DNA of 64,000 nt from the NCBI GenBank assembly GCA_025353105.1, contig JANXRG010000067.1:1-64000 (forward strand), in the 5' to 3' direction. The stretch comes from Verrucomicrobiota bacterium (GTDB lineage Bacteria; Verrucomicrobiota; Verrucomicrobiia; Chthoniobacterales; SZAS-18). The notes under the pieces are model-generated. The model was given only the letters and a program-made list of their open reading frames with translations. It did not search any database and had not been told where the DNA came from. This document shows, one piece after another, positions 1-56,463 of this stretch. Position numbers and translations under genes: made by a program. Every line of letters begins with the position of its first letter. The first letter of the stretch is position 1.

Positions 1-2
1 GC

Positions 3-914
3 GCCATCCATTCGTTCCGTCCGGCCGCCGCGGCTGGGCTGCTGCGGCTGCCCGCCCAGCTCCTGCCCGTGCTGCTGGTGGCGCTGGGCTACCCCGCGCG
101 CATCCCGCCCCCGCCCAAACGCCGGCCGAGTGTTTCCGCCCCACTCGTCTTCATCCTCGGGCCGTGCGTGATTGAATCGGAAAAGATGATGCAGCGCCAC
201 GCGGCGAAGATTGCTGCGATCTGCGGCGAGCTCGACGTCAACTGGGTGCTCAAGGCTTCGTACGACAAGGCCAACCGCACGTCCGGCAAGTCGTTCCGCA
301 ACGCGCTTGAACCGCGCGAAGCCTGCGCGCTGCTCGCGTTTCTCGGCCAGGAATTCGGCGTGCCCGTCACCACCGATGTGCATTCCCCCGCCGAGGCCGA
401 GCTGGCCGCGGAATGGATCGACATTCTTCAAATTCCCGCATTTCTCTGCCGGCAGACTGATCTGCTTGAGGCGGCGGCCGGGACGGGGCGGGTCGTCAAC
501 GTCAAGAAGGGGCAATTCCTTGCGCCGTGGGACGTGCAACACATCGCGGCGAAGCTGCTCGCGGCCGGGAACGACCGGTTCTTTTTCACCGAACGAGGCA
601 CAACCTTCGGCTACCAAAATCTGGTCGCTGACATGCGCTCACTTTATTGGATTCGCGAGCTCGGGTTCCGCGTCGTGTTCGATGCCACGCACTCCGTCCA
701 GCGGCCGGGTGGAGGAGATGGAAAGACGACCGGCGACGGCATGCTGGCGCCCGTCCTGGCGCGCGCGGCGGTGGCGGTCGGCGTCGATGGCGTCTTCATG
801 GAAGTGCACGAAAATCCCGCCAGGGCCCTCTCCGACGGGCCCAATCAAATTCCCCTTCGACAACTCCGCAGCGTGCTGGCTAAGCTGCTCAAGATTCATG
901 AAGCGGCAGCTTGA
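3..914 (+). CDS. kdsA: 3-deoxy-8-phosphooctulonate synthase (KdsA), apparently continuous with a nitroreductase-like C-terminus; partial at left edge
   Basis: KdsA condenses arabinose 5-phosphate with phosphoenolpyruvate to give KDO-8-phosphate for lipid A core synthesis in the cytoplasm. Recognisable KdsA blocks run from about 141 to the stop: ILGPCVIES, WVLKASYDKANRTS, VTTDVHSP, QIPAFLCRQTDLLEAA, VNVKKGQFLAPWD, FFTERGTTFGYQNL, FDATHSVQ and VFMEVHENP. No usual start codon lies just before ILGPCVIES. The only upstream in-frame starts are three GTG codons, at 69, 78 and 162; the frame is otherwise open to the window edge. The upstream residues (LPVLLVALGYPA then RIPPPPKRRP) look like the tail of a nitroreductase. 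Either the ORF is a nitroreductase-KdsA fusion, or an indel hides the boundary, or kdsA starts at GTG 69. The gene overlaps lptC by 17 bases. The KdsA call is very secure; its 5' end is not. Confidence 0.93.
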   Translation, partial: AIHSFRPAAAAGLLRLPAQLLPVLLVALGYPARIPPPPKRRPSVSAPLVFILGPCVIESEKMMQRHAAKIAAICGELDVNWVLKASYDKANRTSGKSFRNALEPREACALLAFLGQEFGVPVTTDVHSPAEAELAAEWIDILQIPAFLCRQTDLLEAAAGTGRVVNVKKGQFLAPWDVQHIAAKLLAAGNDRFFFTERGTTFGYQNLVADMRSLYWIRELGFRVVFDATHSVQRPGGGDGKTTGDGMLAPVLARAAVAVGVDGVFMEVHENPARALSDGPNQIPLRQLRSVLAKLLKIHEAAA

Positions 915-5191: not shown

Positions 5192-5902
5192 ATGAATCCT
5201 GCAATCCTGCTGATGAGCTCCCCAAACTACCAGGTTCGCAAATACCGCCCCGAAGATCGAGGCGCGGTGCGGGAACTTTGTTGCGAGACGGGATTCCTGG
5301 GCCAGCCGGTGGACCCGGTCTTCGAAGATCGCGAGCTGTTTGCCGATTTTCTCACAAGTTACTATCTGCGCTACGAGCCGGCATCGGCGTTTGTGCTGGA
5401 GCGCGACGGGCGGCTGGTGGGCTACATGCTCGGGTGCCTGCATCCGCTCCGGATCCAGTTCTACAACGCGATCCAGAACGTGTTGCTTTTCGCCCTGCTT
5501 TTGTGGCGCTACCCGCGTTACTCCGCCACGTCCCGGAAATTCATCCACTGGATTCTGTGGAACGGATGGCGCGAGGTACCAGCGGTGCCGCGGCGCACTC
5601 CGCATATGCATCTCAATTTCCTGCCCGAGGCTCGCGGCAGCCTGGCGGCCAAGAAACTGTTCGACGCCTTCATGGCGTACCTGTCCTCATCCGGAGTGAA
5701 GCGGGTCTATGGCCAGATGGCCAGTTTCGAAAGCCGGCGCGGCGAGGCGATGTTCCGTCGTTACGGCTTCAAACTAATCAATCGCGCCGAGATTACGAAG
5801 TATCGCGAATTCCGCAACGGGCCCGTGTATCTCAGCACCGTGGTGCGGGATTTTGAGGAGAGTCCGGCGGAAAGCGTCCGGGCGCAAAGCCGCGGCTCGT
5901 GA
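5192..5902 (+). CDS. GNAT-family N-acetyltransferase
   Basis: A 236-residue protein with a GNAT-like layout: an N-terminal VRKYRPEDRGAVRELCCETG helix region, LVGYMLGCLHP as the central strand, and HLNFLPEARGSLAAKKLFDAF in place of the acetyl-CoA-binding segment, ending with MFRRYGFKLINR. Substrate unknown. A hydrophobic stretch (NVLLFALLLWRYP, about residues 95-107) inside the domain is unusual for a soluble GNAT. The start could be ATG 5192 or ATG 5213. It diverges from birA and is followed by tRNA-Thr. Confidence 0.75.
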   Translation: MNPAILLMSSPNYQVRKYRPEDRGAVRELCCETGFLGQPVDPVFEDRELFADFLTSYYLRYEPASAFVLERDGRLVGYMLGCLHPLRIQFYNAIQNVLLFALLLWRYPRYSATSRKFIHWILWNGWREVPAVPRRTPHMHLNFLPEARGSLAAKKLFDAFMAYLSSSGVKRVYGQMASFESRRGEAMFRRYGFKLINRAEITKYREFRNGPVYLSTVVRDFEESPAESVRAQSRGS

Positions 5903-5975
5903 TGCGTGGCTCGCCACGGGCGCGCCTTTCCGCTTGTGGGATTCAGCGGAACGCCGTACCCATCCGGCAGAAAAC

Positions 5976-6048
5976 GCCGACATAGCTCAGTTGGTAGAGC
6001 AGCGGTTTTGTAAACCGCCGGTCATCGGTTCGAATCCGATTGTCGGCT
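5976..6048 (+). tRNA. tRNA-Thr (anticodon TGT)
   Basis: A complete cloverleaf is visible. The acceptor stem GCCGACA pairs with TGTCGGC, the D-arm is GCTC/GAGC, the anticodon stem is GCGGT/ACCGC around the loop TTTGTAA (anticodon TGT), and the T-arm contains GGTTCGAATCC. The 3' CCA is not encoded (the sequence continues TCA). Confidence 0.96.
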
Positions 6049-42802: not shown

Positions 42803-44131
42803 TCACTCCAGCATCGGTTTGCCGGAACGCTCCGTCATGGTGAAGGCGGCGAACACGCTGATCAGACTGACCAGGAAAACGTACCCGCAGACCAGCCAGG
42901 GCTTTCCGTCCGCCTTTTGCAGGAGCGACGTGGCGATCAAGGGCGTGAGTCCGCTCGCGAAAATACCGGAAAATTGGTACACAAACGAGACGCCGGTGTA
43001 GCGGACACGCGTCGTGAACAATTCCGAAAAGAGGGCCGCCTCCGGGCCATAGACCGCCGGGTAGACGAAGCCGAACGGGATGAGGATCGCGACAAAAATC
43101 CACAGCGGATCACGCGTGGCCGTGATAAGCCAAAAGGCCGGGAAGCAAAGCACGCCCGAGGCGATGGCGCCCCACATGAAAACCTTCCTCCGGCCGATTC
43201 GATCCGAAAGCCGGCCGAAGAACGGAATCATGAAAATCATCACGAACGCCGCGGCCGTGACCATCAACAGCGCCTGCGTGCGTGGCAGCTTGATGGCGGC
43301 CGACGTCAGGAAGCTGATGAGGAAAACGCCGTAGAGATTGAACCCGACCCCCTCGATGTAGCGCGCGCCCATGCCTTGGAATACCTCCTTGGTGCTGCTG
43401 CGAAAGAGCTCCACGAACGGCACGGCAGCATGTGTGCGGGACTCCTGCACCTTGCGAAACGCCGGCGTTTCATACAGACGCGAGCGAATGTAGATGCCCA
43501 CGAGCACAAGCAGCGCACTCAACAGGAACGCGACGCGCCAGCCCCACCGGAGAAATTGATCCTCCGGCAGCCGCGACAGGAGCGCGACCACGCCGGTGCT
43601 CAGCGCCAGGCCGGCGGGCACGCCCACCTGCGGCCAACTCCCGTAAAAGCCACGTTTCTTGTCCGGGGCATATTCCACGGCCATCAACACCGCGCCGCCC
43701 CACTCGCCGCCGATGCCGATGCCCTGAAAGATGCGGAGAATAACGAGGATGATCGGCGCCGCGATGCCGATGCTCGCGTAGGTGGGCACCAAGCCAATGG
43801 CAAATGTCGCCACGCCCATGATCACGAGCGTCAGCACGAGAATGCGCTTGCGACCGAGCCGGTCGCCGAAGTGCCCGAAGATGATGCCGCCGAGCGGCCG
43901 CGCCACAAATCCCACGGCAAACGTCGCATAGGCGAGCAGCGTGCCGACGAACGGATCGACATTCGGGAAAAACAACTTGTTGAAGACGAGCCCGGCGACC
44001 ACGCCGTAGAGAAAGAAGTCGTACCACTCGATGATGCAGCCAATGGCACTGGCGAGTGCCACCCGCTGGATCGAGGACGTCTGTTCATCGGCCACCGTAC
44101 CGGGAATAACCACTTGCGGGGGAGTGCTCAT
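42803..44131 (-). CDS. MHS-family MFS transporter (metabolite:H+ symporter), isethionate/sulfonate uptake candidate
   Basis: A 442-residue 12-helix permease. The MHS-type start IIEWYDFFLYGVVAGLVFNKLF, the loop 2-3 motif FGHFGDRLGRKRILVLTL and RIFQGIGIGGEWGGAVLM are diagnostic of the MHS subfamily (ShiA/KgtP/ProP relatives). It imports a small organic anion or zwitterion with protons. It diverges from the GMC dehydrogenase across 195 bases that contain the shared operator-like motif, so isethionate or a related sulfonate is a reasonable cargo; choline/betaine-like cargo is the alternative. ATG 44131 was chosen at the family start; a longer frame reaches 44239. Confidence 0.88.
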   Translation of the reverse strand: MSTPPQVVIPGTVADEQTSSIQRVALASAIGCIIEWYDFFLYGVVAGLVFNKLFFPNVDPFVGTLLAYATFAVGFVARPLGGIIFGHFGDRLGRKRILVLTLVIMGVATFAIGLVPTYASIGIAAPIILVILRIFQGIGIGGEWGGAVLMAVEYAPDKKRGFYGSWPQVGVPAGLALSTGVVALLSRLPEDQFLRWGWRVAFLLSALLVLVGIYIRSRLYETPAFRKVQESRTHAAVPFVELFRSSTKEVFQGMGARYIEGVGFNLYGVFLISFLTSAAIKLPRTQALLMVTAAAFVMIFMIPFFGRLSDRIGRRKVFMWGAIASGVLCFPAFWLITATRDPLWIFVAILIPFGFVYPAVYGPEAALFSELFTTRVRYTGVSFVYQFSGIFASGLTPLIATSLLQKADGKPWLVCGYVFLVSLISVFAAFTMTERSGKPMLE

Positions 44132-44247
44132 GGGGAGGGGAAAGTGAAGGGATTCTGCGAAGGGACCCGTCGCGACGAACGCGAGCCGGGAAAACAACGG
44201 ATGGCACGGGTTTTTCTGAAAACAGGCGGAAAGTGTCAATCAAAATA

Positions 44248-44270
44248 ATGAAATATTTTGTTCCATTTTC
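44248..44270. promoter_or_regulatory. Putative IclR-family operator, site 1
   Basis: The 23-nt segment beginning ATGAAATATTTTG is 19/23 identical to 53468-53490, with the first 11 bases identical. It lies in the divergent gap between the MHS transporter and the GMC dehydrogenase, in an AT-rich island rare for this genome. The AATGAAAT/ATTTCATT-type palindrome resembles operators known for IclR-family regulators such as KdgR and IclR. Confidence 0.6.
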
Positions 44271-44326: not shown

Positions 44327-45949
44327 ATGTCCTCTCCACCACCTGATGCCGCAACGGAATTCGATTTCATCATCGTGGGCGCCGGCTCGAGCGGTTGCGT
44401 GCTGGCGAACCGCCTGAGCGCTTCGGGCGGGCATCGCGTGCTGCTGCTCGAGGCCGGACCGCGCGACGACTACAAATGGATCCACATCCCGATGGGATAC
44501 AGCCGGACGATGTTTCATCCGGAGATCAACTGGGGGTTCTACACGCAACCGGATCCCGGAATCGCGGGGCGCAAAAATTACTGGCCGCGCGGCAGGGTCC
44601 TGGGCGGTTGCAGCGCCATCAATGGTCTGCTCTGGGTGCGGGGTCAGAGCGACGACTTCCGCATTTGGGAAGCTCTCGGCAACAAGGGCTGGGGTTGGGA
44701 CGATGTGCTGCCGCATTTCAAGGCGACCGAGTCGTACGCCCGCGGCGACGCGCGGATTCGCGGGCGAAGTGGCGAGACCAGCGTCGAGGACGGCGAGCGG
44801 CACGAGCTGGTCGACGCCTTCATCGCCGGGGCCGAGCAAGCGGGCATCCCGCGCGCGATCGATTACAACGGCGAAATCCAGGAAGGCGCGGCGTATTTCC
44901 AAATCAACAAGCGCCGCGGCATTCGCAGCAGCACTTCAGTCGCGTTTCTGCGGCCGGCCGAGCGGCGTCCAAATCTTGTGATTACGACCGGTGCGCACGC
45001 GACCCGTGTTCGGATGGAAACCGGCCGCGCCACGTCGCTCGAATATGTGCAGGCCGGCGTGAAGCGGATGGCGCGGGCGCGACACGACATCATCCTTTCG
45101 GCCGGCGCGCTGCAATCGCCGCAGTTGCTGCAGCTTTCCGGCATCGGCCCGGGGGCCCTGCTGCAGCAACATGGTGTGCCGCTCGTGCGCAATTTGCCGG
45201 GCGTCGGCGAAAACATGCAGGATCACCTGCAGATCCGGCTGCTCTTCAAAAGCTCGCGCCCCGTCACTAACAACGATGTCGTGAACTCCTGGCTGGGGCG
45301 CTTGCGCGTTCGCTGGCAGTACTTCATCCGCCGCGGTGGCCCGATGGCAAGCGGGATCAACCAGGGCGTGCTGTTCACGAGCTCCCGGCCGGCCGAGACT
45401 CGCCGGCCGGACATCGAATTTCATTTCGGCACGACCAGTTCCGATCAGCCCGGGGCCAGGCCGCATCCGTGGTCGGGCTTCACCATTTCGACGTGCCAAC
45501 TACGGCCGGAGAGCAAGGGCTGGGTGCAAATCGGATCCGCCGATCCGCTCGCCGCGCCCATCATCCAGCCGAACTATCTTTCCCACCCGCTCGACGTCGA
45601 GACGGCGTTGCGCGGCGTGAAGCTTGTGCGCAAGGTTTCACAGGCCCCGGCGCTCGCGGCGTACGTGAAGGAGGAGTTTCAGCCGGGGTCGGCGGCGCAA
45701 AGCGACGACGAGTTGCTGGCGTGGGTGCGGGAGCGGGGCGCGACGACGATTTTTCATCCGGCCGGCACGTGCAAAATGGGAACCGATTCCATGTCCGTGG
45801 TCGACGACCGGTTGCGCGTGCACGGCATTCGTGGCCTGCGCGTGGTCGATTGCTCCGTCATGCCGATCATCGTCTCGGGCAACACGAATGCCGCCTGCAT
45901 CATGATCGGCAACAAGGCTGCCCAGATGATTCTCGAGGATGCGCGCTAG
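44327..45949 (+). CDS. GMC-family FAD oxidoreductase, isethionate dehydrogenase (IseJ-like) candidate
   Basis: A 540-residue flavoprotein. The FAD-binding start DFIIVGAGSSGCVLANRL leads to LLLEAGPRDDYKWIHIPMG, then RGRVLGGCSAINGLLWVRGQ (GMC signature 1), AGALQSPQLLQLSGIGP (signature 2) and ENMQDHL. Near the end are FHPAGTCKMG with the catalytic His and SGNTNAACIMIGNKAAQMI. Usual annotation would be choline/alcohol dehydrogenase. Its neighbours (MHS transporter, Xsc, Pta, IclR regulator) match the isethionate dehydrogenase IseJ of Cupriavidus, which oxidises isethionate to sulfoacetaldehyde and belongs to this family. ATG 44327 is at the family start. Confidence 0.88.
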   Translation: MSSPPPDAATEFDFIIVGAGSSGCVLANRLSASGGHRVLLLEAGPRDDYKWIHIPMGYSRTMFHPEINWGFYTQPDPGIAGRKNYWPRGRVLGGCSAINGLLWVRGQSDDFRIWEALGNKGWGWDDVLPHFKATESYARGDARIRGRSGETSVEDGERHELVDAFIAGAEQAGIPRAIDYNGEIQEGAAYFQINKRRGIRSSTSVAFLRPAERRPNLVITTGAHATRVRMETGRATSLEYVQAGVKRMARARHDIILSAGALQSPQLLQLSGIGPGALLQQHGVPLVRNLPGVGENMQDHLQIRLLFKSSRPVTNNDVVNSWLGRLRVRWQYFIRRGGPMASGINQGVLFTSSRPAETRRPDIEFHFGTTSSDQPGARPHPWSGFTISTCQLRPESKGWVQIGSADPLAAPIIQPNYLSHPLDVETALRGVKLVRKVSQAPALAAYVKEEFQPGSAAQSDDELLAWVRERGATTIFHPAGTCKMGTDSMSVVDDRLRVHGIRGLRVVDCSVMPIIVSGNTNAACIMIGNKAAQMILEDAR

Positions 45950-45967: not shown

Positions 45968-46978
45968 TTAAAGCCGAAGCAACCAGCAGCCCGTGAGAAC
46001 AAACGCCAGCAGCCCGAACCAGCTGACGATGAAGGCCAACGCCGCACGCAGGCCGTGCTCACGCAGGCGCGCGTAATCCACCTGTAGGCCCAAGCCGGCC
46101 ATGCCCATTGTCATCAGGAACAGCCCCACGAAGAGCATCCAGGCGCCCATCGACCGCACGATGGCCGCCTGGCCGGTGGCGCGCAGGACGAGGAAATTAA
46201 CGACGCCGACCGCGAAGAATCCCACCACAAACCAAGGGAACGGGACGTTCACCTTCGCCTCCCCGCCGCGGCGATGCAACACCGCGACCAAAATGAGAAT
46301 CACGGGCGCCAGCAACAAGACGCGGACCAGTTTTGTGACCGTCCCCACATCGAGTGCCGCCGGAACCGGCGTCACCGCGGCCAGCACTTGCGCCACCTCG
46401 TGCAGGCTCGCGCCCGCGACCACGCCATAGTATTGCGCGTGCCAGCCCAACGCGGCCTGCACCGCAATCAGCGCCAGCGCCGCGCCGGTGCCGATCACCG
46501 TGACCAGCACGAGGGCCAGCGCCGATTCATCCTCGCGGGCCCGCACGACCGGCGTCGCCGCGACAATGGCGGACGCGCCACAGATGCCGCTCCCGATCGC
46601 CACGAGCCATCCCATTGATTCCTCCAGTCCGAAGAGGCGCGAAATCCAGCGGACGAAGAAAAGGGAAAACGTGATGACGGCCAAATCGAGGACGAGAATC
46701 TTCCAGCCGGCGCCGAGGATCAGGTCGAAATTCAATCGCACGCCCAGAAGAACGATGCCAAAGCGCAGCAAGGCCTTCGCCGCGTAGGTGAATCCCGATT
46801 TGTATTCCGCCGGTGGCGTGACGGCGGCCCGGATGATCATCGCGATCACCAGCGCTACCGCCAGCGGGCCGATGATGTTCAAGATCGGAAGCTTCGCGAC
46901 CCAATACCCAGCGGTCGCGACGACTGCCGAAAAAAGCAGACCGGGCAGAAACCCCGCTGTTTTGAACTCGGAAATCAT
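45968..46978 (-). CDS. UPF0324/YeiH-family putative sulfate (sulfite) exporter, TauZ/SuyZ-like
   Basis: A 336-residue membrane protein with about ten hydrophobic segments. LPGLLFSAVVATAGYWVAKL starts it, followed by GFTYAAKALLRFGIVLLGVRL, the conserved GSGICGASAIVAATPVV, GVVAGASLHEVAQVLAA, and a closing MGMAGLGLQVDYARLREHGL. This is the UPF0324/PSE family, in which TauZ/SuyZ of Paracoccus are proposed to export sulfate or sulfite made from sulfonates. Its ATG overlaps the acyl-CoA ligase stop (ATGA), so expression is coupled. It would remove the oxyanion released by Xsc. The exported ion is unproven. Confidence 0.88.
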   Translation of the reverse strand: MISEFKTAGFLPGLLFSAVVATAGYWVAKLPILNIIGPLAVALVIAMIIRAAVTPPAEYKSGFTYAAKALLRFGIVLLGVRLNFDLILGAGWKILVLDLAVITFSLFFVRWISRLFGLEESMGWLVAIGSGICGASAIVAATPVVRAREDESALALVLVTVIGTGAALALIAVQAALGWHAQYYGVVAGASLHEVAQVLAAVTPVPAALDVGTVTKLVRVLLLAPVILILVAVLHRRGGEAKVNVPFPWFVVGFFAVGVVNFLVLRATGQAAIVRSMGAWMLFVGLFLMTMGMAGLGLQVDYARLREHGLRAALAFIVSWFGLLAFVLTGCWLLRL

Positions 46979-48489
46979 GAATGGAGTTCCGCGAGCTTGA
47001 GCCGTTGCACCTTGCCCGACGGACCGCGCGGCAGGTCGTCCACGAAGAGAAGCACCTTGGGAGTCTTGTACTTTCCGAGTTCCGCCAGCGCGAATTCCCG
47101 CAGTTCCGCTTCCAGGCAGGCGCATCCCGACTTGAGGATCACGCAGGCCATGATCTCCTGTCCGTAATGTGGATCGGGAATGCCGACGGCGGCTGCTTCC
47201 AGCACCGCAGGATGCTTCATCAACGCCTCGTCAATCTCGCGCGGCGCGATGTTCTCCCCGCCCTTGATGATCAATTCCTTCAACCGGCCGGTCACGAAAT
47301 AGAATCCGTCCGGGTCGCGATAACCAAGATCGCCCGAGCGCAGCCAGCCGCCGGCGTAAAATGATTTTTCCGTCGCTTCGGGATTCTTGTAATAGCTGGC
47401 GAGAACGTTATCCCCGCGGATGCAAATCTCTCCGGGGGTTCCGTCCGGCACATCGCGGCCTTCCAGATCCACGATCTTGGCCTCGTTGCCGAACGCGATG
47501 CCAGGGCTTCCGTACTTGCGCTTAGCCGGATCGAGCGGGTTGGTGAAGCAGGGTGCCGCGGTCTCCGTCATGCCCATCGTTTCGATGATGCCGATGCCAA
47601 ACTTCTCCTCAAAAGCGCGGTGCAACTCCGGCGGGAGCGGCGCGCTGGCACTGCGCGCAAATCGAACGGAAGGAACTTTGACCCCCCTGGCGAGCGGCCC
47701 CGGGGCATTCAACAAATACGAAACGATCGTCGGCACAAAATTCAGCCAGGTGCATCCGTGTTCGCGCGCGGTCTGCCAGTAGTTCGTCGCGCTGAATTTG
47801 CGCGGAAGGACCACGCTGCCTCCACTGACGAGCGGCGCGACCGCCGTCACAATCTGCCCATTGATGTGGTAGAGAGGCAGGACGCAGAGCACGCGGTCAC
47901 TTTCCGTCAGGGCGTGCGCCGCACTCGTGTACTCGCCGCCGGCGACGACGTTCTGGTGCGAGAGCAAAACCCCCTTCGGCTGGCCGGTCGTGCCGGACGT
48001 ATACATCAACAGCGCGTCGTCCGGCGGGGTGACCCGGGGCAGTTGCTCCGCCGAAAGAGGATTGGCCGGAGGAAGAGCGGTCGAGTCGACATCGATTTCC
48101 AAGATCGTGATGTCGCGACCGATGGCCGCGATTGCCTCGCGCAGCCGGCCCATTTCCGCGCCGTGGGCAAAGACGACGCGCGTGTCCGAGTGTTCGAGAA
48201 CGTAGCGGAGTTGGGAGGCTTGCGAGAGCAGGTTAATCGGCGCGACCGTGAACCCGCCGTACATGATGCCGAGCAGGAGCGCACCGGTTTGGTAACCGTT
48301 GCACATCATCAACGAAACCTTTTCCCCAGGGCGCACGCCCAAGGCCAGCAACTGCGCGGTCAGAGCGCGCGCGTGACGCTGCAAGTCGCCGTACGTCAGG
48401 ATTGCGCCCGTCTCCGGTGCGATCAGAAAGACGCGGTCCGGTTGCGTGGCGGCGCGATGATCCAGATGGGCGCGAATCGTGCGAAGCAT
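46975..48489 (-). CDS. AMP-forming acyl-CoA ligase, sulfoacetate-CoA ligase (SauT-like) candidate
   Basis: A 504-residue ANL-superfamily enzyme. The ATP loop LLMYTSGTTGQPKGVLLSHQ, SSAPLPPELH-like text (RSASAPLPPELHRAFEEKFG), and MGMTETAAPCFTNPL come first. GWLRSGDLGYRDPDGFYFVT, then KELIIKGGENIAPREIDEAL, and the final Lys in GPSGKVQRLK complete the set. General annotation would be a fatty or medium-chain acyl-CoA ligase. Between an acylating aldehyde dehydrogenase and a sulfur-anion exporter it fits SauT, which activates sulfoacetate to sulfoacetyl-CoA. I chose ATG 48489 at the family start; the frame runs on into the mobile element upstream. No diagnostic substrate residue is claimed. Confidence 0.88.
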   Translation of the reverse strand: MLRTIRAHLDHRAATQPDRVFLIAPETGAILTYGDLQRHARALTAQLLALGVRPGEKVSLMMCNGYQTGALLLGIMYGGFTVAPINLLSQASQLRYVLEHSDTRVVFAHGAEMGRLREAIAAIGRDITILEIDVDSTALPPANPLSAEQLPRVTPPDDALLMYTSGTTGQPKGVLLSHQNVVAGGEYTSAAHALTESDRVLCVLPLYHINGQIVTAVAPLVSGGSVVLPRKFSATNYWQTAREHGCTWLNFVPTIVSYLLNAPGPLARGVKVPSVRFARSASAPLPPELHRAFEEKFGIGIIETMGMTETAAPCFTNPLDPAKRKYGSPGIAFGNEAKIVDLEGRDVPDGTPGEICIRGDNVLASYYKNPEATEKSFYAGGWLRSGDLGYRDPDGFYFVTGRLKELIIKGGENIAPREIDEALMKHPAVLEAAAVGIPDPHYGQEIMACVILKSGCACLEAELREFALAELGKYKTPKVLLFVDDLPRGPSGKVQRLKLAELHS

Positions 48490-48503
48490 CGGGACGGGGC
48501 GAC

Positions 48504-48783
48504 TAGGAGCCTGTTGAAATACTGGCATGGCCCGCGCGAGCGTCGCTTGGGCTGGCGGGCGGTGGCGTGAGGAGGGAGCGGGTTCCATCAACCCCGCGAC
48601 CGACGAGCAACGCCGGCAGACGGCCCAAGCCACGTTCGCCCTCCGGGTTGCGCCGCTTCTTCGCTTGGGCGGCGTCGCCGCGCTCGGGCAGGATCGCCTT
48701 GGATCCAGCCGCTTCGCGCGCTCCTTGCCCAAGCCAAAAATCGACTGCAACGCGGGTCATGCCAGTATTTCAATACGCTCCTA
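48504..48783. mobile_element. MITE-like element with 33-nt terminal inverted repeats and TA ends
   Basis: The left end (48504-48536) and right end (48751-48783) form an inverted repeat with 30 of 33 positions matching. The core TTGAAATACTGGCATG is perfect on both sides. The element is 280 nt including a TA at each outer end, which fits the TA target duplication of IS630/Tc1-mariner elements; it encodes no transposase. It separates the ligase and the aldehyde dehydrogenase genes. The right-hand TA plus the first base of the repeat forms the TAG stop of the dehydrogenase. Confidence 0.82.
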
Positions 48784-50199
48784 AACGCCGTGCTTTTTCC
48801 GGTAGGCGCCGAACAACTCCTCGTCCGTCACCTCGCGCGGCGGAATCGTGCGGGAAATGCGCGTAATATTCAGATAGTGCCGGTAATTCAGATTCTCGGA
48901 AAAATTATTCCGGCCCCACGTGCCGCAGCCCATCGAAAGCGAGAACGGCAGGCCATTGTCAAAGCTGCCGCCCGTGGCGTAACAATGGGCCTGGTTCACG
49001 ATGACGCGGCAGACTGGCAGCTCCAATCCAAGGCGGAGGATGCGCGCGTCGTCGCGCGAATGCATTCCCACCGAATGCCCGGCGCCCTGGTACGCGTAGA
49101 TTGCCGCCGTGATTTCGACGGCGTGGTCAAAGTCACGCGCCCGGTACACGGCGAGCACGGGCGAAAGCTTCTCCCCGGAGAAAGGATGGCCCGGACCCAC
49201 GCCGTTCTCTTCCACCATCAAAATTGCCGCATCGCGCAAATCAGACCGGGCCAGTCCGGCGATTTCCGCGACGCGCGCGGCGCTCTGCGCGGTGGCGATC
49301 GCCGAAAGCTTTCCACCCGGGAACATGACCGCCTGCAGCGTGGCTTTTTCCGCGGAGTCAAGCATCACGGCGCCCTCGCGCCGCAGGGCGGCAAGCATCG
49401 CATCATAAACGGCCTCGACGACGATGACCGAATTTTCCGACGAGCAACTCGTCGCGTGGTCGAACGTCTTGGACTGCCGGATTAATTCCGCCGCACTTGG
49501 GAGATCGGCGGTCTCGTCCACGATCGAGACCACGTTTCCCGCCCCCACGCCGAACGCCGGCGTGCCGGAGACCGCGGCGGCCCGCACGTTTGCGCGTGAG
49601 CCAGTCACGACCACGAGGTCGGCCTGCCGCAACAATTCCGCGCTGGTTTCCTTCGTCACCGGCGCGGGCAGCATCTGCACGAGATCGCGCGGGGCACCCA
49701 CGCGATCGAGTTCCGCGTGGATGAATTCGAGCAGCTTCGCGCAGGTGCTCCAACCTTTCGGGGACGGCGAAAGGATGACCGCGTTCCGTCCCTTCAACGC
49801 ATTGATGACCTTGTTTGCGGGCGTCGCGCCCGGATTCGTGGAAGGCGTCACGGCCGCCACCACGCCCACCGGGCGCGCAATCTCCACGAGGCCGAGCTCG
49901 GGAAATTCGGCGATGACGCCGACCGTTTTCACCCCGCGTAAATCGCGCAGCAATCCCATCGTCTTGCGCCGGTTTTTCGTGAACTTGTCTTCCGCCTTGC
50001 CCAGGCCGGTGTCCGCGACCGCGAGATCCGCGAGCAGCCGATTGCGGCCGGGTTCCACGATGGCCCAGCCGGCGGCGGTCACGACTTCATCCACCGCGGC
50101 CTGATCGTATCGCTCGAAGGCCCGCTGCGCCGCCCCTGCTCGCTCGACGAGCGAGCGCACAAGTTGCACGGCCGGCGATGACTCATTGGTCGGTTCCAT
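48781..50199 (-). CDS. Acylating aldehyde dehydrogenase, sulfoacetaldehyde dehydrogenase (SauS-like) candidate
   Basis: A 472-residue CoA-acylating aldehyde dehydrogenase without the alcohol dehydrogenase half. PVGVVAAVTPSTNPGATPAN marks the cofactor region, VVVTGSRANVRAAAVSGTPA and GVGAGNVVSIVDETAD follow, and the catalytic Cys lies in FDHATSCSSENSVIVVEA. The C-terminus has GGSFDNGLPFSLSMGCGTWG and NNFSENLNYRHYLNITRI. The motif SCSSENS, rather than the CASEQ of AdhE/EutE, and the Xsc neighbour favour SauS, which reduces sulfoacetyl-CoA to sulfoacetaldehyde. Its stop codon is formed by the end of the MITE-like element, so the last residues may differ from the ancestral protein. Confidence 0.9.
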   Translation of the reverse strand: MEPTNESSPAVQLVRSLVERAGAAQRAFERYDQAAVDEVVTAAGWAIVEPGRNRLLADLAVADTGLGKAEDKFTKNRRKTMGLLRDLRGVKTVGVIAEFPELGLVEIARPVGVVAAVTPSTNPGATPANKVINALKGRNAVILSPSPKGWSTCAKLLEFIHAELDRVGAPRDLVQMLPAPVTKETSAELLRQADLVVVTGSRANVRAAAVSGTPAFGVGAGNVVSIVDETADLPSAAELIRQSKTFDHATSCSSENSVIVVEAVYDAMLAALRREGAVMLDSAEKATLQAVMFPGGKLSAIATAQSAARVAEIAGLARSDLRDAAILMVEENGVGPGHPFSGEKLSPVLAVYRARDFDHAVEITAAIYAYQGAGHSVGMHSRDDARILRLGLELPVCRVIVNQAHCYATGGSFDNGLPFSLSMGCGTWGRNNFSENLNYRHYLNITRISRTIPPREVTDEELFGAYRKKHGV

Positions 50200-50211: not shown

Positions 50212-51510
50212 TCAGCCGGCCGTCGGCGCCGTAGTCGGGGCGACCGGTGCCTCGGTGGGATCGACGACATGCTTGTTCGGGTTGATGAAGAAGGCACAGA
50301 TCGCGCCGATGGCGAGCAGGCCGGCCGAAAGCAGAAATGCCAGTTTATAGTTGCCGGTGTTTTGAATCAGGAAACCAAACGCGACCGGCGCAATCATGCC
50401 CGCGACGCCAAAGCCCGTATTCATCATTCCCGCCGCGGTCCCGCCGTAGCGGCCCGCAATGTCGATCGGGAGGCTCCAGAGCACGGCATTCGTCAGCTCG
50501 ATCATGAAGAAAGCGCCGGCGAGCAGCCAGACGGCGGTTTCCACCGATTTCGCGAACGGAGCCGGAACCATGAAACAAACCGCACCGCCCAGGCCGACGA
50601 TGAGGAGGCTTAGGCGCGCCAGGCGCAGATTGCCCGTCCGCCGGTAGATGAAGTCGGACAAAACGCCGCCGAGCGTGTCACCCACGACTCCGGCGAGCAG
50701 CGTCAGCGTGGAAAAGAGCGCCATCTTTTTCAGGTCGACCTTGTAAGTGTCGGCGAAGAAAGAAGGCAGCCACGTCAGAAACACCCACAACGACCAGCCG
50801 TAACAAAAATCCACGAAGGTCACGAGCCACATGCGCCGGATCATCTCCGCCCACGGCGTGGGGGGCGCCTTCTTCGACGATTGCGCGATTACCGCCGCGC
50901 CGATTTCATCGATTTCCTGCGGTGAGACACCCTTCTTTTGCAGGGGTGAATCACGAAACCAGAAATACCACCACACCACCCAAAGCAGGCTGACCATGCC
51001 GAGGGAGATAAACGCGAAACGCCAGTCGCGGGCGAGGACCAGCCACGCCACGATCGGGGGTGTCACCGCGCCGCCGAGCCGCGCAAAGCTGTGCGTGATG
51101 CCCTGCGCGAAGCCGCGTTCGCCTTTCGGCAGCCACCAGGTGAATGCCCGCGTGGCCGTGGGAAAGGCCCCGCCCTCGCCGATGCCCAGGAGGACGCGCG
51201 AAAGAACCAGGGTCAGGATTCCGCCGGAAAATCCCGTCCAAATCGTCGCCACCGACCAGATGACTCCCAGCAGCGTCAACGTGAAGCGCGGACCGTACTT
51301 GTCCGAAAACCACCCGCCGAGAATCTGCATCGCGGCGTACGGATAAGCGAAGGCGGAGAAGACGAATCCGAGTTGCGTCTTATTCAAGCCAAGCGCCTTG
51401 GCAATCTCCGGCCCGGCCACGGAGATGTTCACGCGGTCGATGTACGTGATGAAATACATCACGCACAGGATGCCAATCACGCCGTAGCGGTATCTGAAGA
51501 ATCGGTTCAT
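50212..51510 (-). CDS. ACS-family MFS transporter, sulfoacetate uptake (SauU-like) candidate
   Basis: A 432-residue permease with 12 predicted helices. The start YGVIGILCVMYFITYIDRVN, GFVFSAFAYPYAAMQILGGW followed by FSDKYGPRFTL, and RVLLGIGEGGAFPTATRAF mark the anion:cation symporter group. SPLQKKGVSPQEIDEI is the usual central cytoplasmic loop. It lies 12 bases upstream of the aldehyde dehydrogenase on the same strand, as sauU accompanies sauS and sauT in Cupriavidus. The cargo is likely sulfoacetate or another short organic anion, by context. Confidence 0.9.
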   Translation of the reverse strand: MNRFFRYRYGVIGILCVMYFITYIDRVNISVAGPEIAKALGLNKTQLGFVFSAFAYPYAAMQILGGWFSDKYGPRFTLTLLGVIWSVATIWTGFSGGILTLVLSRVLLGIGEGGAFPTATRAFTWWLPKGERGFAQGITHSFARLGGAVTPPIVAWLVLARDWRFAFISLGMVSLLWVVWWYFWFRDSPLQKKGVSPQEIDEIGAAVIAQSSKKAPPTPWAEMIRRMWLVTFVDFCYGWSLWVFLTWLPSFFADTYKVDLKKMALFSTLTLLAGVVGDTLGGVLSDFIYRRTGNLRLARLSLLIVGLGGAVCFMVPAPFAKSVETAVWLLAGAFFMIELTNAVLWSLPIDIAGRYGGTAAGMMNTGFGVAGMIAPVAFGFLIQNTGNYKLAFLLSAGLLAIGAICAFFINPNKHVVDPTEAPVAPTTAPTAG

Positions 51511-51627: not shown

Positions 51628-53358
51628 TTAAATGCCCGGCGCGCTGTGCGCCTTGTATTTGTCCAGGATGCGCTTCGGCTGCTTGAAGGCATCGCGGCGG
51701 AACGGGTCGCCCAGTTCACGCGTGAGATTAATGTTCACGATCGTGCACTTGTTGGACGCGACGGCCTCCCGGAGTGCATCGCCGACTTCGTCCTCGTCCG
51801 AAACCGTGATGCCGTTACCGCCCATCGCCTTCGCGACGTCAGCAAAGTCCGGATTTGTGAGATTCGAGCCCACGAAACGATCACCGAAGTAATCAACCTG
51901 GTTTTTCTTTTCGGCGCCCCATTGCTGGTTATTAAAGATCACGCCAACGACGGGAATATCCTCGCGCACGCACGTCATCACTTCCGCCAGGCTCATGCCC
52001 CAGGCGCCGTCGCCGACATATGCGATGGCCGGACGATCGGGCCGGCCAACCTTGGCGCCCATCGCCGTCGGGAACGCGTAACCGCAATTTCCAAAGCTCA
52101 TCGCCGCCATGAAACTGCCGGGCTCTTCGAAGTGCAGGTAGCTGTTCGAGACCGAGCAGACATTTCCGATGTCGGTCGCGACCATGGCGTTCTTCGGCAT
52201 GGCCTTCGCCAGCGCCGCGAGCGCGCGGCGGGGACCGATCTTCCCGGGCTCGTTGGGCGACGGCCAATTGGCCAGTTCATCGCGCCACGCGTCTTTCTCC
52301 GCTTTGATTTCGTGGAGGCGCGCTTCATTCCGCGGACGCTCGCCGCCCAGCTTTTTGAGCCGTTGGAGAATGTCCGCCGCGGCGAGTCGGGCGTCACCGC
52401 AGACCCCGACGGAGATTGGCTTCACGAGGCCGAGCATGCGGTGGTCGGCGTCGATCTGCACGATCTTCGCGTTCTTCGGCCAGTAATCGAGGCCGTGTTG
52501 CGGCAGCGTGCCGAAGGGCCCAAGGCGCGAACCGAGGGCCAGGACCACGTCCGCCTTGGCCATCAGCTTCATCGCTGCCTTCGAGCCCTGGTAGCCCAGC
52601 GGGCCGCAGGCGAGCGGATGACTCGCGGGAAACGAGTCGTTGTGCAGGTAGCTGTTGACGACCGGCGCGCTGAGATACTCCGCGAGCGCCTTGCATTCCG
52701 CCACGCCGCCGGAAAAAATCACGCCGCCGCCGGCGAGGATGACCGGGAATTTTGCCCCGGCCAGCAGCTTCGCCGCGGCTTCGAGCGACTCCGGTCCGCC
52801 GGGTCCGCGCTCAATGATCTGCGGCTGCGGGATGGCGACCTCGACGTCGCCGTAGAAATAATCGCGCGGGATGTTGATCTGCGCGGGACCGCGCTCGGCC
52901 AGCGCGAGCGTAAACGCACGGTGCGTGAGCTCCGCCAGCCGATGCGGCGAGCTCACGTGCACCTGATATTTGGTGATCTTCGAGAAGATCGGCATCTGCT
53001 CGGTTTCCTGGAATCCCCCGTGCCCCATCGAGAGGCTGCCGGATTCCGGCGTGATGACGACAATCGGGGAATGCGCCCAGTACGCCGCCGCGACCGCGGT
53101 GACGAAGTTGGTGATGCCGGGCCCGTTCTGCGCGATGCACACGCCGTGCCGACCGGTCACGCGCGAAAAGCCATCGGCCGCATGCGCGGCCGCCTGTTCG
53201 TGGGCCACGGAAATAAAGCGGATGCCGGCCAGCGGAAAGAGGTCGAGCGCATCCATGTAGGCCGAGCCGACAATGCCGAAGACCTCCTTCACCCCCTGCG
53301 CGACGAGAGTTTCGACAAACGCTTCGCTGGGGGACATGCGGATTTTTTGAGGACTCAT
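51628..53358 (-). CDS. xsc: Sulfoacetaldehyde acetyltransferase
   Basis: A 576-residue thiamine diphosphate enzyme that converts sulfoacetaldehyde and phosphate to acetyl phosphate and sulfite. The start MSPSEAFVETLVAQGVKEVF then GIVGSAYMDALDLFPLAGIR is the Xsc opening, with the catalytic Glu in SVAHEQAAAHAADGFSR and the conserved AQNGPGITNFVTAVAAAYWA. GGFQETEQMPIFSKITKYQV and LNIPRDYFYGD-like INIPRDYFYGDVEVAI are likewise Xsc-specific rather than acetolactate synthase-like. The TPP motif is GDGAWGMSLAEVMTCVRED through FNNQQWGAEKKNQ. ATG 53358 was chosen. It is the first gene of the leftward operon and the strongest evidence that the island handles C2 sulfonates. Confidence 0.95.
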   Translation of the reverse strand: MSPQKIRMSPSEAFVETLVAQGVKEVFGIVGSAYMDALDLFPLAGIRFISVAHEQAAAHAADGFSRVTGRHGVCIAQNGPGITNFVTAVAAAYWAHSPIVVITPESGSLSMGHGGFQETEQMPIFSKITKYQVHVSSPHRLAELTHRAFTLALAERGPAQINIPRDYFYGDVEVAIPQPQIIERGPGGPESLEAAAKLLAGAKFPVILAGGGVIFSGGVAECKALAEYLSAPVVNSYLHNDSFPASHPLACGPLGYQGSKAAMKLMAKADVVLALGSRLGPFGTLPQHGLDYWPKNAKIVQIDADHRMLGLVKPISVGVCGDARLAAADILQRLKKLGGERPRNEARLHEIKAEKDAWRDELANWPSPNEPGKIGPRRALAALAKAMPKNAMVATDIGNVCSVSNSYLHFEEPGSFMAAMSFGNCGYAFPTAMGAKVGRPDRPAIAYVGDGAWGMSLAEVMTCVREDIPVVGVIFNNQQWGAEKKNQVDYFGDRFVGSNLTNPDFADVAKAMGGNGITVSDEDEVGDALREAVASNKCTIVNINLTRELGDPFRRDAFKQPKRILDKYKAHSAPGI

Positions 53359-53466
53359 GGACGGTGGAGAATGGGATGGAATGGGAACAGACGTCGGCCG
53401 GACGGGGGCGTCAGCGCGACCCGTTTTGCCCCGAACGCGGCCGCTCGGCAAGAATTATTTTCTAAA

Positions 53467-53490
53467 AATGAAATATTTCATTTCGTTTTC
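53467..53490. promoter_or_regulatory. Putative IclR-family operator, site 2
   Basis: AATGAAATATTTCATT at 53467-53482 is a perfect 16-nt palindrome. The segment 53468-53490 is 19/23 identical to site 1 at 44248-44270. It sits between the xsc start (53358) and the regulator start (53515), where it could control both the xsc operon and iclR autoregulation. The surrounding 60 bases are strikingly AT-rich. Confidence 0.65.
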
Positions 53491-53514: not shown

Positions 53515-54435
53515 ATGCACAAGCCAAGGGCGGAAAAGCGGGCGCGGGTGGCCCATCGTACGGGGATGCAGCGCACCCCGACAAAGTCCGCGAAGATCAG
53601 CGCCCGCGCCGTGGCGGCGCCGGAACCATTTGGATCCGCGGCGCTCCGAGCCTTCCTCATCCTCGAAGTCGTCGTCGCGGCCAAGGAACCCTGCGCCCTT
53701 GATGACGTCGCGCGCGCCACCGGACTTTCCAAGCCCACGGCCTTTCGCATCCTCACCCAGCTTGAGAGTTCCGGAATGCTCGTGCGCGAACCGGGCGACC
53801 GACGTTACACCGTGGGCCATCGCCTGGCGGAACTCGCGCTGGGGGTCATGCAAAACTCCATGCTCCGATCCGAGCAGCACGCCATTCTCCAGCGCCTGGT
53901 GGAGAAAATCGGCGAGACGTGCAATGTCGCCATGCTCGATGGCCGGCAGTTGATGTATATCGACCGGGTTGAAACGTCCTGGCCGTTGCGCCTGCATCTC
54001 GCGCCCGGCTCACGCGTGCCGTTACATTGCACGTCGGGCGGCAAACTTTTCCTGAGCCGGCTGCCGCGTTCCCGCTGGGAGAAACTCATCGGGCCGGGGC
54101 CGTACGAGCGCCACACTCCGCACACCATCACCCGGGCCGATGAACTGGAGCGCCAACTGGCCCGGATTCGCGCGGAGGGCTGGAGCGCCGATCGCGAGGA
54201 GTTGCTCGCCGGCATCATCTGCCTGGCCGTGCCCGTGGTGGATCGCGCGGGGGGCTTGATCGCGACCCTCGCGTTGCAGGCCCCGCTGGCGCGCATGTCG
54301 CACGTACAGAGTCTCGACCATTTGCCGGCGCTGCGCACCGCAGCGGCCGCCCTGACGACAAGCTTTCAGCCGTCCGTCCCAGCCACGGCTTCCCGCGCGC
54401 GGCGGAAGAAGCCGAAATCTCCCGCACGCAGATAG
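53515..54435 (+). CDS. IclR-family transcriptional regulator of the sulfonate island
   Basis: 306 residues. After a basic leader (1-40) comes the IclR winged helix (about 43-105): SAALRAFLILEVVVAAKEP, LDDVARATGLSKPTAFRIL and QLESSGMLVREPGDRRYTVG. The effector domain (about 120-285) contains GETCNVAMLDGRQLMYIDRV, RVPLHCTSGGKLFLS, and GWSADREELLAGIICLAVPV with VVDRAGGLIATLALQ. IclR-type regulators (IseR) are linked to isethionate clusters in Cupriavidus. It diverges from xsc across the palindromic site and is 16 bases upstream of pta. The ligand is likely a sulfonate or sulfoacetaldehyde; unproven. Confidence 0.92.
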   Translation: MHKPRAEKRARVAHRTGMQRTPTKSAKISARAVAAPEPFGSAALRAFLILEVVVAAKEPCALDDVARATGLSKPTAFRILTQLESSGMLVREPGDRRYTVGHRLAELALGVMQNSMLRSEQHAILQRLVEKIGETCNVAMLDGRQLMYIDRVETSWPLRLHLAPGSRVPLHCTSGGKLFLSRLPRSRWEKLIGPGPYERHTPHTITRADELERQLARIRAEGWSADREELLAGIICLAVPVVDRAGGLIATLALQAPLARMSHVQSLDHLPALRTAAAALTTSFQPSVPATASRARRKKPKSPARR

Positions 54436-54451
54436 TCGATCCAATTCAAGC

Positions 54452-55363
54452 ATGACGACGTATCGCCTCTACGATCCGCTGCTGGCGATCTGCCAGGAAC
54501 GCGGCCCGCGACCGGCGGCCGTCGTGTACCCGTGCAGCGCGGAGGCGATCGCTGGCGCGATGGATTCCGCGCGACTGGGATTGATTCGCCCCATCCTCGT
54601 CGGACCCGCGCAGCAGATTCGGGCGCTCGCCGAAGCGAATCAGATCGCTCTGACCGGCGCGACCTTTGAACCCGCGGCCACGCCGAACGAGGCAGCCCGC
54701 CGCGCCGCCGCCCTCGTCGGTGAAGGACTCGTCAGCTTGCTCATGAAGGGAAGCCTGCACACCGACGAACTGATGTCGGTCGTCGTGTCCCGCGAAGCCG
54801 GCCTGCGCCGGGGACGACGTATCAGCCATTCGTTCGTGATGGACATTCCGAAGTACCCGAAGCTCCTGCACATCACCGACGCGGCCGTGAACATTGCGCC
54901 CGACCTCAAGACGAAGCGCGACATCGCCCAGAACTGCATCGATCTGGCCCAGGCCCTCGGCGTGGAGCGCCCCAAGCTCGCGATCCTCTCGGCGGTCGAG
55001 ACCGTGACCGCAGGCCTGCCCGCCACCGCCGACGCGGCCGCGCTTTGCGAGATGGCGCAGCACGGGGAAATCACCGGCGCAGACCTGAGCGGACCGCTGG
55101 CCTTTGACATCGCGATTTCGACGGAAGCGGCGCGCATCAAAGGCATTGTCTCGAGTGTCGCCGGGTCGCCTGACATCCTGCTCGTCCCCGGCATCGAATC
55201 GGGCAACATCCTGTTCAAAGCGCTGTGCTACCTCGCGGGCGCACGGGCCGCCGGCGTGGTGCTGGGGGCGCGCGTCCCGGTCGTGCTCACGAGCCGTGCC
55301 GACGACGCCACCACGCGCATCGTGTCGACCATCGTTGCGTGCCAATGTGCGATCGAGGCGTAG
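54452..55363 (+). CDS. pta: Phosphate acetyltransferase (short type)
   Basis: A 303-residue PTA/PTB-family enzyme converting acetyl phosphate and CoA to acetyl-CoA. Visible segments are AVVYPCSAEAIAGAMDSARL, LVSLLMKGSLHTDELMSVVV, RRISHSFVMDIPKYPKLLHI, GPLAFDIAISTEAARIKGI and LLVPGIESGNILFKALCYLA. It lacks the long N-terminal regulatory region of E. coli Pta. PtaS of this short type accompany Xsc in known taurine and isethionate clusters, where they use the acetyl phosphate released. A butyryl-type activity cannot be excluded from sequence, but the neighbours favour acetyl phosphate. Confidence 0.92.
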   Translation: MTTYRLYDPLLAICQERGPRPAAVVYPCSAEAIAGAMDSARLGLIRPILVGPAQQIRALAEANQIALTGATFEPAATPNEAARRAAALVGEGLVSLLMKGSLHTDELMSVVVSREAGLRRGRRISHSFVMDIPKYPKLLHITDAAVNIAPDLKTKRDIAQNCIDLAQALGVERPKLAILSAVETVTAGLPATADAAALCEMAQHGEITGADLSGPLAFDIAISTEAARIKGIVSSVAGSPDILLVPGIESGNILFKALCYLAGARAAGVVLGARVPVVLTSRADDATTRIVSTIVACQCAIEA

Positions 55364-55428: not shown

Positions 55429-56463
55429 ATGAAATTCCTCTCCCGGATGGTTGCGATCGGAATTGCGGTGCAACTGGCGTGCACCGGCACAGGCTGGGCC
55501 CAGACGCCCCTGCCCGCGGCGGGCGGACGTGTCCTCAAGATTGGGCATCAATTTCCGGGCGGCACCGCGGACGCGGGGGATTTTCGCGATCGGCTCTGCC
55601 GGAAGTTTGCGGCCGAGGTTGAAAGGCGCACCAACGGTTCGCTGAGATTTGAGGTTTACCCGGACAACAAGCTGGTCCGGCCGGAGGATTACGTCGACGC
55701 GCTGCAAAAATCGACGATGGATCTTTGTCTCACGCCGATGAACAATCTGTTCGCGAAAGTGCCGGAAGTGGCGGTCGCACAACTTCCCGGCGTCATCCGC
55801 GACTACGAGCAAGGGATGCGCTGGAAAGGCCAGCCCGCCGGGCAAGACCTCGCCGCGGCATTGGATAAGAACGGGGCCATCATTTTGACCTGGGTCTGGG
55901 AGGCCGCGGGAATCGTGTCGCTGATTCGACCCGTCACCGTCCCCGATGACGTGCGCGATCTGCGCGTGCGCGGCGCCGGCAAGGGCGTCGATGCGATATT
56001 TTCCGCGGCTGGCGCGAAGATGCTCACGATGCCGTCAAGCGACATCCGGCCGGCTTTTCGCGAGCGTCGCCTCGATGCCGCGGTCTCGGCGTCCACGTCC
56101 CTCGTGGCTTTTCATCTCGAGGAATACTGCCGGGCGGTCACCACCCCGCGCAACCGGTCCATTTTCTATTTTTTCGCCCCGCTGATGATTTCCAAAACCA
56201 CGTTCAACACGCTGACGCCGGACCAAAAACGAATCGTGGTCGAGGTGGGCGCCTCACTCGAGAAATTTGCGCTCGAAGCGGTCAAGGCCGACGACGAAGC
56301 GCTGGCCCGTGCCTACCTCGCGAGCAACGCGGCGGTGCTGGATCTCGATGAAGAACAGTGGTTGCTCTGGCAGCGGTTCGCAAAGGCCGCGTCGTGGCGG
56401 GATTTCGAGAAGTCCGTGCCGGACGGAGCGCGGCGCATCAAGAACGCCCTCGCGGTCCCGTGA
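55429..56463 (+). CDS. TRAP transporter substrate-binding protein (DctP family), orphan
   Basis: 344 residues with a signal peptide (MVAIGIAVQLACTGTGWAQ). The DctP fold reads LKIGHQFPGGTADAGDFRDR, FAAEVERRTNGSLRFEVYPD, NKLVRPEDYVDALQKSTMDL and ILTWVWEAAGIVSLIRPV. The specificity-Arg region is VRDLRVRGAGKGVDAIFSAA. The closing part has FYFFAPLMISKTTFNTLTPD. It would bind a carboxylate or sulfonate in the periplasm. No DctQ or DctM membrane partner is in the window, so it either uses one encoded elsewhere or serves as a sensor component. It follows pta by 65 bases on the same strand. The ligand is unknown. Confidence 0.88.
   Translation: MKFLSRMVAIGIAVQLACTGTGWAQTPLPAAGGRVLKIGHQFPGGTADAGDFRDRLCRKFAAEVERRTNGSLRFEVYPDNKLVRPEDYVDALQKSTMDLCLTPMNNLFAKVPEVAVAQLPGVIRDYEQGMRWKGQPAGQDLAAALDKNGAIILTWVWEAAGIVSLIRPVTVPDDVRDLRVRGAGKGVDAIFSAAGAKMLTMPSSDIRPAFRERRLDAAVSASTSLVAFHLEEYCRAVTTPRNRSIFYFFAPLMISKTTFNTLTPDQKRIVVEVGASLEKFALEAVKADDEALARAYLASNAAVLDLDEEQWLLWQRFAKAASWRDFEKSVPDGARRIKNALAVP

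Follow-up and report, generated by a model that had tools for sequence, protein, structure and literature searches.

A predicted 27-bp IclR operator in two divergent promoter gaps of a verrucomicrobial C2-sulfonate gene island

Genes of the sulfonate island

The window (the whole 64 kb stretch of DNA analysed here) carries an island of sulfonate genes with two divergent gaps. At the first, a gene for an MFS metabolite/H+ symporter (42803–44131, minus strand) lies back to back with one for a GMC-family oxidoreductase (44327–45949, plus strand). The symporter is a candidate isethionate permease (IseU-like) on context only, and the oxidoreductase a candidate isethionate dehydrogenase (IseJ-like) on family and context only. 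IseJ is a flavin-dependent membrane-bound enzyme and IseU is an MFS transporter (PMC6453916). The GMC protein has the context expected of IseJ, being a GMC-family flavoprotein beside an MFS permease and near xsc, and its isethionate activity is putative. It is not called BetA, because its choline dehydrogenase score of 548.9 falls below the cut-off of 605.

The second gap separates xsc, encoding sulfoacetaldehyde acetyltransferase (51628–53358, minus strand), from iclR (53515–54435, plus strand). The latter encodes an IclR-family regulator of 306 residues, with an HTH_IclR domain at 43–93 and an IclR_C domain at 112–280; translation may instead begin at Met18, an ATG further along the frame. 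On the minus strand xsc is followed by the gene for an MFS transporter, SauU-like by family and context (50212–51510), then sauS, encoding an acylating sulfoacetaldehyde dehydrogenase (48781–50199), a sauT-like gene for an AMP-binding acyl-CoA ligase (46975–48540, named by family and context; the ORF runs to 48750 and the start is uncertain), and a gene for a YeiH/Cons_hypoth698 putative sulfite/sulfate exporter (45968–46951, in an ORF that runs on to 47125). Both xsc and sauS pass curated NCBIfam cut-offs (TIGR03457, 869.5 bits against 676.4; NF047625, 748.9 bits against 600). On the plus strand, iclR is followed by pta, encoding phosphate acetyltransferase (54452–55363), which has the same position downstream of iclR in betaproteobacterial clusters, and by the gene for a TRAP transporter solute-binding protein (DctP, 55429–56463), possibly within the iclR-pta transcript.

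The transporter that follows xsc varies. It is the SauU-like MFS protein in the window, and TctC at the same position in Burkholderiales and in a second genome of the same genus, G002 (compared at L033 74–1135, L132 1–2300, L039 6747–7973 and L044 6815–7816). In L039 and L044, the two betaproteobacterial loci tested, tctC sits between xsc and sauS, and G002 carries TctB/TctA-like frames, identified by eye, ahead of sauS. This suggests that the type of transporter has been swapped inside a conserved operon.

Two copies of a palindrome

A preliminary description of this DNA reported a perfect palindrome of 16 nt between xsc and iclR, repeated in the MFS/GMC gap. Both copies are there: AATGAAATATTTCATT occurs exactly at 53467–53482, and with two mismatches at 44247–44262. 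The 23-mers at 53468–53490 and 44248–44270 differ at four positions, giving the 19/23 identity originally noted. The flanking genes are also as described, with xsc(-)/iclR(+) and MFS(-)/GMC(+) both divergent, and the two gaps are AT-rich for this region (49% and 52% G+C, against 63% for the window).

The same description held that two such copies would hardly arise by chance, and the counts agree. With up to three mismatches to AATGAAATATTTCATT allowed, the 64 kb window holds these two sites and no third, while shuffled sequences of this length contain on average 0.08, and none of 100 shuffles reached two. In the genome of the window (G000; 3,724,877 bases, or 3.72 Mb; 97.6% complete), a scan for the 16-mer with up to two mismatches likewise returned this pair alone. 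Exact matches in this genome to the degenerate two-box pattern AAYGAAW-N7-TTYCRTTTT are likewise confined to the two gaps. The motif is therefore rare genome-wide, and not one that is frequent in unrelated gaps.

Conservation in betaproteobacterial xsc/iclR gaps

A genome scan with the window IclR returned 41 relatives, nearly all from Betaproteobacteria. In seven of these loci (L039, L040, L041, L043, L044, L045 and L075; IclR 44–48% identical), xsc is divergent from iclR. Beyond xsc, the six clusters long enough to show it all carry sauS and sauT, and pta lies behind iclR in five of the six. All seven gaps contain AAAAAYGAATC-N5-GTTTCATTTTT or a near variant. Its centre is always 69–70 bp ahead of the point where iclR begins, and beyond it comes a TGCATAATG-like -10 element that is likewise conserved. 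Because the seven IclRs are close to each other, these sites do not amount to seven independent events. The comparison of orthologous gaps proposed in the preliminary description thus shows the element to be present in related clusters, at the xsc/iclR gaps of both Betaproteobacteria and G002. On both refuting grounds that sequence data can address, frequency in the genome and absence from related clusters, the earlier reading survives.

A matrix was built from the seven betaproteobacterial sites, with the window sequence excluded. Symmetrised as a 27-mer, it ranks 53464–53490 (operator 1) first in the window with 26.7 bits and 44244–44270 (operator 2) second with 20.3 bits; the next match has 7.5 bits. 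Dinucleotide-preserving shuffles of the gaps reached these scores in 2 of 5000 cases for operator 1 and 10 of 5000 for operator 2, and with the plain, unsymmetrised matrix in 4 and 18 of 5000. Searched with at most three mismatches, the plain consensus of the betaproteobacterial sites finds six further places in the genome of the window (2–3 mismatches each), and some of these equal the two sites under the unsymmetrised matrix (25.7, 23.9 and 23.4 bits). Under the symmetrised matrix, both window sites stand above all six, the best of which has 19.1 bits.

An exact merged pattern was also run as a blind scan over 100 genomes around one betaproteobacterium. It gave 12 matches, nine of them xsc/iclR gaps, of which three were new; the reversed control pattern gave two matches. 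Because these sites were already known when the merged pattern was drawn up, the scan demonstrates specificity rather than discovery; with nine of 12 exact matches at xsc/iclR gaps, the element is specific enough to be usable as a marker. The nearest GMC homologues were inspected in six of the seven betaproteobacterial genomes, and none of the six has the operator. In Betaproteobacteria the motif marks the xsc/iclR gap alone, and the GMC-side site is confined to the verrucomicrobial genus of the window.

A profile made from sequence only (R1) recovered, in local mode, its own betaproteobacterial source sites and the G002 xsc gap. In local searches of whole genomes, where many matches were partial, it did not recover the two window sites among the 150 candidates scored per genome. 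The pattern searches and the matrix were used in its place.

Same-genus genomes

In G002 the element occurs in the xsc/iclR gap (C25:3063–3089, 33.1 bits symmetrised) and again, on another contig, directly upstream of the GMC orthologue (C146:6301–6327, 32.2 bits symmetrised); no shuffle out of 5000 reached the score in either gap. The G002 GMC frame (L132, G002:C146, 6163–7801) lacks about 57 internal codons, in-frame, and only a C-terminal stump remains of the MFS gene beside the intact operator. The isethionate branch of G002 looks decayed, or misassembled. Retention of the site is consequently no proof of its present use, as the GMC gene is gapped and the MFS gene reduced to a stump.

These data bear on the possibility that operator 1 alone is real, and that what lies between the MFS and GMC genes is a relic or an AT-rich sequence that matches by chance. 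Operator 2 is indeed the weaker site, with 20.3 bits and arms symmetric at 7 of 11 positions; shuffling its gap 5000 times gave ten equally high scores, and the GMC homologues of Betaproteobacteria lack it. Against this, nothing else in the genome apart from operator 1 comes within two mismatches of the 16-mer, and G002 retains a strong version of it upstream of the orthologous GMC gene. We consider this reading unlikely, and prefer one in which both sites are operators.

Two further features were seen in same-genus genomes. Between sauT and the MFS stump of G002 (L132, about 5600–6000) there is an array of short degenerate TCCAACGTTGGATG-type repeats. Genome G001, which has no xsc-linked IclR, contains AAAAACGAATCGCGTTTCGTTTTT, a palindrome of 24 bp that is almost perfect and in which 2 nt separate the same boxes (G001:C115:31628–31652; L156, about 2028). 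A scan of 388 genomes of the phylum at E < 1e-45 found no further verrucomicrobial IclR orthologues, the window's own genome aside.

Extent and register of the predicted operator

The conserved unit reaches past the 16-mer, to 53464–53490 and 44244–44270. Operator 1 reads AAAAATGAAAT-ATTTC-ATTTCGTTTTC, with arms symmetric at 9 of 11 positions, and includes the 16-mer; operator 2 reads AATAATGAAAT-ATTTT-GTTCCATTTTC. When the 11 sites are aligned, the two 11-bp arms are conserved and the 5-bp spacer is not, and all 11 keep the boxes 5 nt apart (AAAAAYGAAWC-N5-GTTTCRTTTTT). The symmetry centre of this element is 2.5 bp to the right of that of the 16-mer. On sequence grounds, the predicted operator is thus a 27-bp imperfect palindrome of 11-5-11 form, because the betaproteobacterial matrix and the same-genus genome both point to that element.

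The 16-mer takes in the whole spacer together with the left arm, and ends within the first bases of the right one. It reads as a perfect palindrome because the spacer of operator 1 happens to be ATTTC, a sequence to which the spacers of the sister species and of Betaproteobacteria bear no relation. At the second gap the 16-bp reading is imperfect and the outer arm is retained (GTTCCATTTTC). The 16-mer is therefore real as a sequence but probably not the bound unit.

The preliminary description had taken AATGAAATATTTCATT itself to be the operator, of KdgR/IclR type. In favour of this, the 16-mer is perfect at 53467–53482 and the two window sites are identical at 14 of 15 bases over left arm and spacer. 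However, its right arm is broken in the second gap (TTTTGTT), sister-species and betaproteobacterial sites have unconserved spacer where that arm would be, and it is the arm lying another 5 bp outward that 11 of 11 sites keep. Its boxes, TGAAAT and ATTTCA with 0 nt between them, are not what is conserved. Nor is the spacing that of KdgR, whose operator is GAAAC-N3-GTTTC, or GAAAC-GNC-GTTTC (PMC8222616, Table 1): it is 5 in the conserved register and 0 in that of the 16-mer. With box spacing of N5, where N3–4 has been published, the element is not KdgR-type, and we regard the 16-mer as very unlikely to be the operator. A three-box (PcaU-like) arrangement was also considered and rejected; a TTTTC box precedes the left arm of operator 1 by 7 bp, but by eye it is absent at operator 2 and in Betaproteobacteria.

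The two window spacers are alike (53475–53479, ATTTC; 44255–44259, ATTTT) and unlike those of G002, and elsewhere the spacer is unconserved. One operator may recently have been copied onto the other gap.

The IclR regulator

The regulator passes the cut-offs for both IclR domains (PF09339, 41.9 bits against 22; PF01614, 132.6 bits against 24). It scores below those of the KdgR equivalog model (NF011671, 119.6 against 275 bits) and the PcaR/PcaU/PobR subfamily model (TIGR02431, 157.6 against 284.75 bits). The recognition helix of xsc-linked IclRs is KPTVFRIL, with KPTAFRIL in the window and KPTALRLL in G002. In the sauS-linked Burkholderiaceae paralogues the helix is KQTVHRIL, and their gap holds another inverted repeat, TTTTCGGGACT-N6-AGTCCCGAAAA; GMC-linked paralogues have IPKATL.R.

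In the phylogenetic tree, the window IclR pairs with that of G002 (100/99), and the two sit with the xsc-linked proteins in a branch (97/88) from which the sauS-linked ones are absent; the inner order of this branch is weakly resolved and its branches are long. The sauS-linked IclRs form a separate branch of 24 rows (100/100). The window IclR is not placed in the SauR clade, since it groups with the G002 protein, and its operator also differs. The match between helix class and operator class, together with the tree, supports, without proving, that the divergent IclR reads the element.

The TTTTCGGGACT-N6-AGTCCCGAAAA repeat is strong and common to Burkholderiaceae in the sauS/iclR gaps of L047–L071 (for example L053, 9727–10000), and is a likely SauR operator. 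The Caballeronia GMC/iclR gaps L048 8731–9054 and L052 8680–9022 contain GTTCCACTTTC-like boxes, which resemble the right arm of operator 2, GTTCCATTTTC; the recognition helix of these IclRs differs from that of the window protein.

It could be argued that the element belongs to another regulator of sulfonate genes in both lineages, given that the assignment to IclR rests on position, conservation and a family-typical box sequence. We judge this highly unlikely. The element lies in the regulator's own gap in all nine betaproteobacterial xsc/iclR exact matches and in both verrucomicrobial genomes, the boxes YGAAWC/GTTTCR are the IclR-family half-site (TGRAAC/GTTYCA; PMC8222616), and the operator class shifts along with the recognition-helix class. 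That the two AT-rich gaps resemble each other by chance, as gap shuffles that occasionally score high might suggest, is extremely unlikely when rarity in window and genome, matrix rank, shuffles and the 100-genome scan are combined, and the fact that other species keep the element speaks against it too.

A proposed single regulon for two sulfonate branches

On the basis of these comparisons, we propose that 53464–53490 and 44244–44270 are very probably operators of the IclR encoded at 53515–54435, which would control itself, xsc and both feeder branches. An IclR dimer would bind the inverted boxes YGAAWC and GTTTCR, 5 bp apart and flanked by A- and T-tracts, within the 27-bp (11-5-11) element. 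Operator 1, which a weak sigma-70-like promoter for xsc spans, would cover the back-to-back promoters for xsc(-sauU-sauS-sauT-yeiH) and iclR(-pta). Operator 2 would cover the promoters that drive the MFS transporter and GMC dehydrogenase genes. Besides its own gene, the regulator would thereby govern the shared desulfonation step Xsc and two feeder branches, which converge on sulfoacetaldehyde: that of sulfoacetate via SauT/SauS, and that of isethionate via the GMC dehydrogenase. Binding, autoregulation and what the GMC and MFS proteins act on are inferences of ours.

Sulfoacetaldehyde is the sole intermediate common to the sulfoacetate and isethionate branches. We favour it, or else sulfoacetate, as the probable effector. 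The simple reading would be repression in both directions, lifted by a sulfonate intermediate. Repression is a tentative choice, because SauR of Cupriavidus necator answers sulfonatoacetate and 15 of the systems in the same study were of activator or dual type, with BadR the one repressor named (PMC7057948).

The single IclR regulon joining isethionate and sulfoacetate branches, as first suggested for this DNA, is well supported by conservation, rarity and the match of helix and operator, and its register is corrected to 27 bp. What stands is a conserved, non-random element, the probable operator of the neighbouring IclR, common to both gene sets; the 16-nt unit and the KdgR type do not.

More tentatively, it is possible that these sites represent a previously undescribed class of IclR operator, with outward boxes 5 bp apart and A/T-tract arms, that marks the xsc-linked regulator of Betaproteobacteria and of one verrucomicrobial genus. 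In that genus a second copy of the operator would have been gained and the isethionate uptake and oxidation pair taken over, so that one sulfoacetaldehyde-sensing protein would control both C2-sulfonate branches, which elsewhere are under separate IclRs.

What the analysis predicts is an exact operator, and with it a small regulon through which Verrucomicrobiota would control aerobic degradation of C2 sulfonates. The presence of the element in two gaps in one genus, against one in Betaproteobacteria, would provide a small worked case of regulon growth through operator gain.

Comparison with known operators and systems

Our literature search found no open paper on an IclR operator at xsc and, in the papers it covered, no published regulator binding site for xsc. 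IclR operators have been described as two types, GKTYCRY-W3-4-RYGRAMC and TGRAACA-N1-2-TGTTYCA (Suvorova and Gelfand 2021, PMC8222616), with KdgR and E. coli IclR as examples of group 2; the main text of that work makes no mention of sulfonate regulons. The present element shares with group 2 the box sequence and its outward-facing order (TGAAAC ... GTTTCA; consensus YGAAWC ... GTTTCR over 11 sites), and the position in the regulator's own divergent gap. It differs in that the boxes are 5 nt apart in 11 of 11 sites, against 3–4 published, and that A/T-tract arms are conserved outside them. The putative operator is thus group-2-like by its boxes and outside the published consensus by its spacing.

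SauR/sauSTU of Cupriavidus necator H16 is a validated system, inducible by sulfonatoacetate (PMC7057948). As there, the sulfoacetate genes lie under a neighbouring regulator, and SauS and SauT are common to both. The contrast with SauR is drawn from the sauS-linked IclRs of Burkholderiaceae, which form a separate clade with another helix and the TTTTCGGGACT-N6-AGTCCCGAAAA repeat.

In Caballeronia/Paraburkholderia (L048, L052, L058 and L062) an IclR lies beside a GMC/MFS pair. Whereas the window pair has no second IclR beside it, theirs is a separate regulator with the helix IPKATL.R.

Close counterparts are the Burkholderiales clusters xsc-tctC-sauS-sauT/iclR-pta (L039, L041, L043–L045 and L075). 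Where tested (L039 and L044), TctC stands at the place that the MFS transporter has in the window; the GMC/MFS pair is not nearby, and a second operator was not found in these genomes; the gene order at the gap, the operator and the recognition-helix class are the same as in the window.
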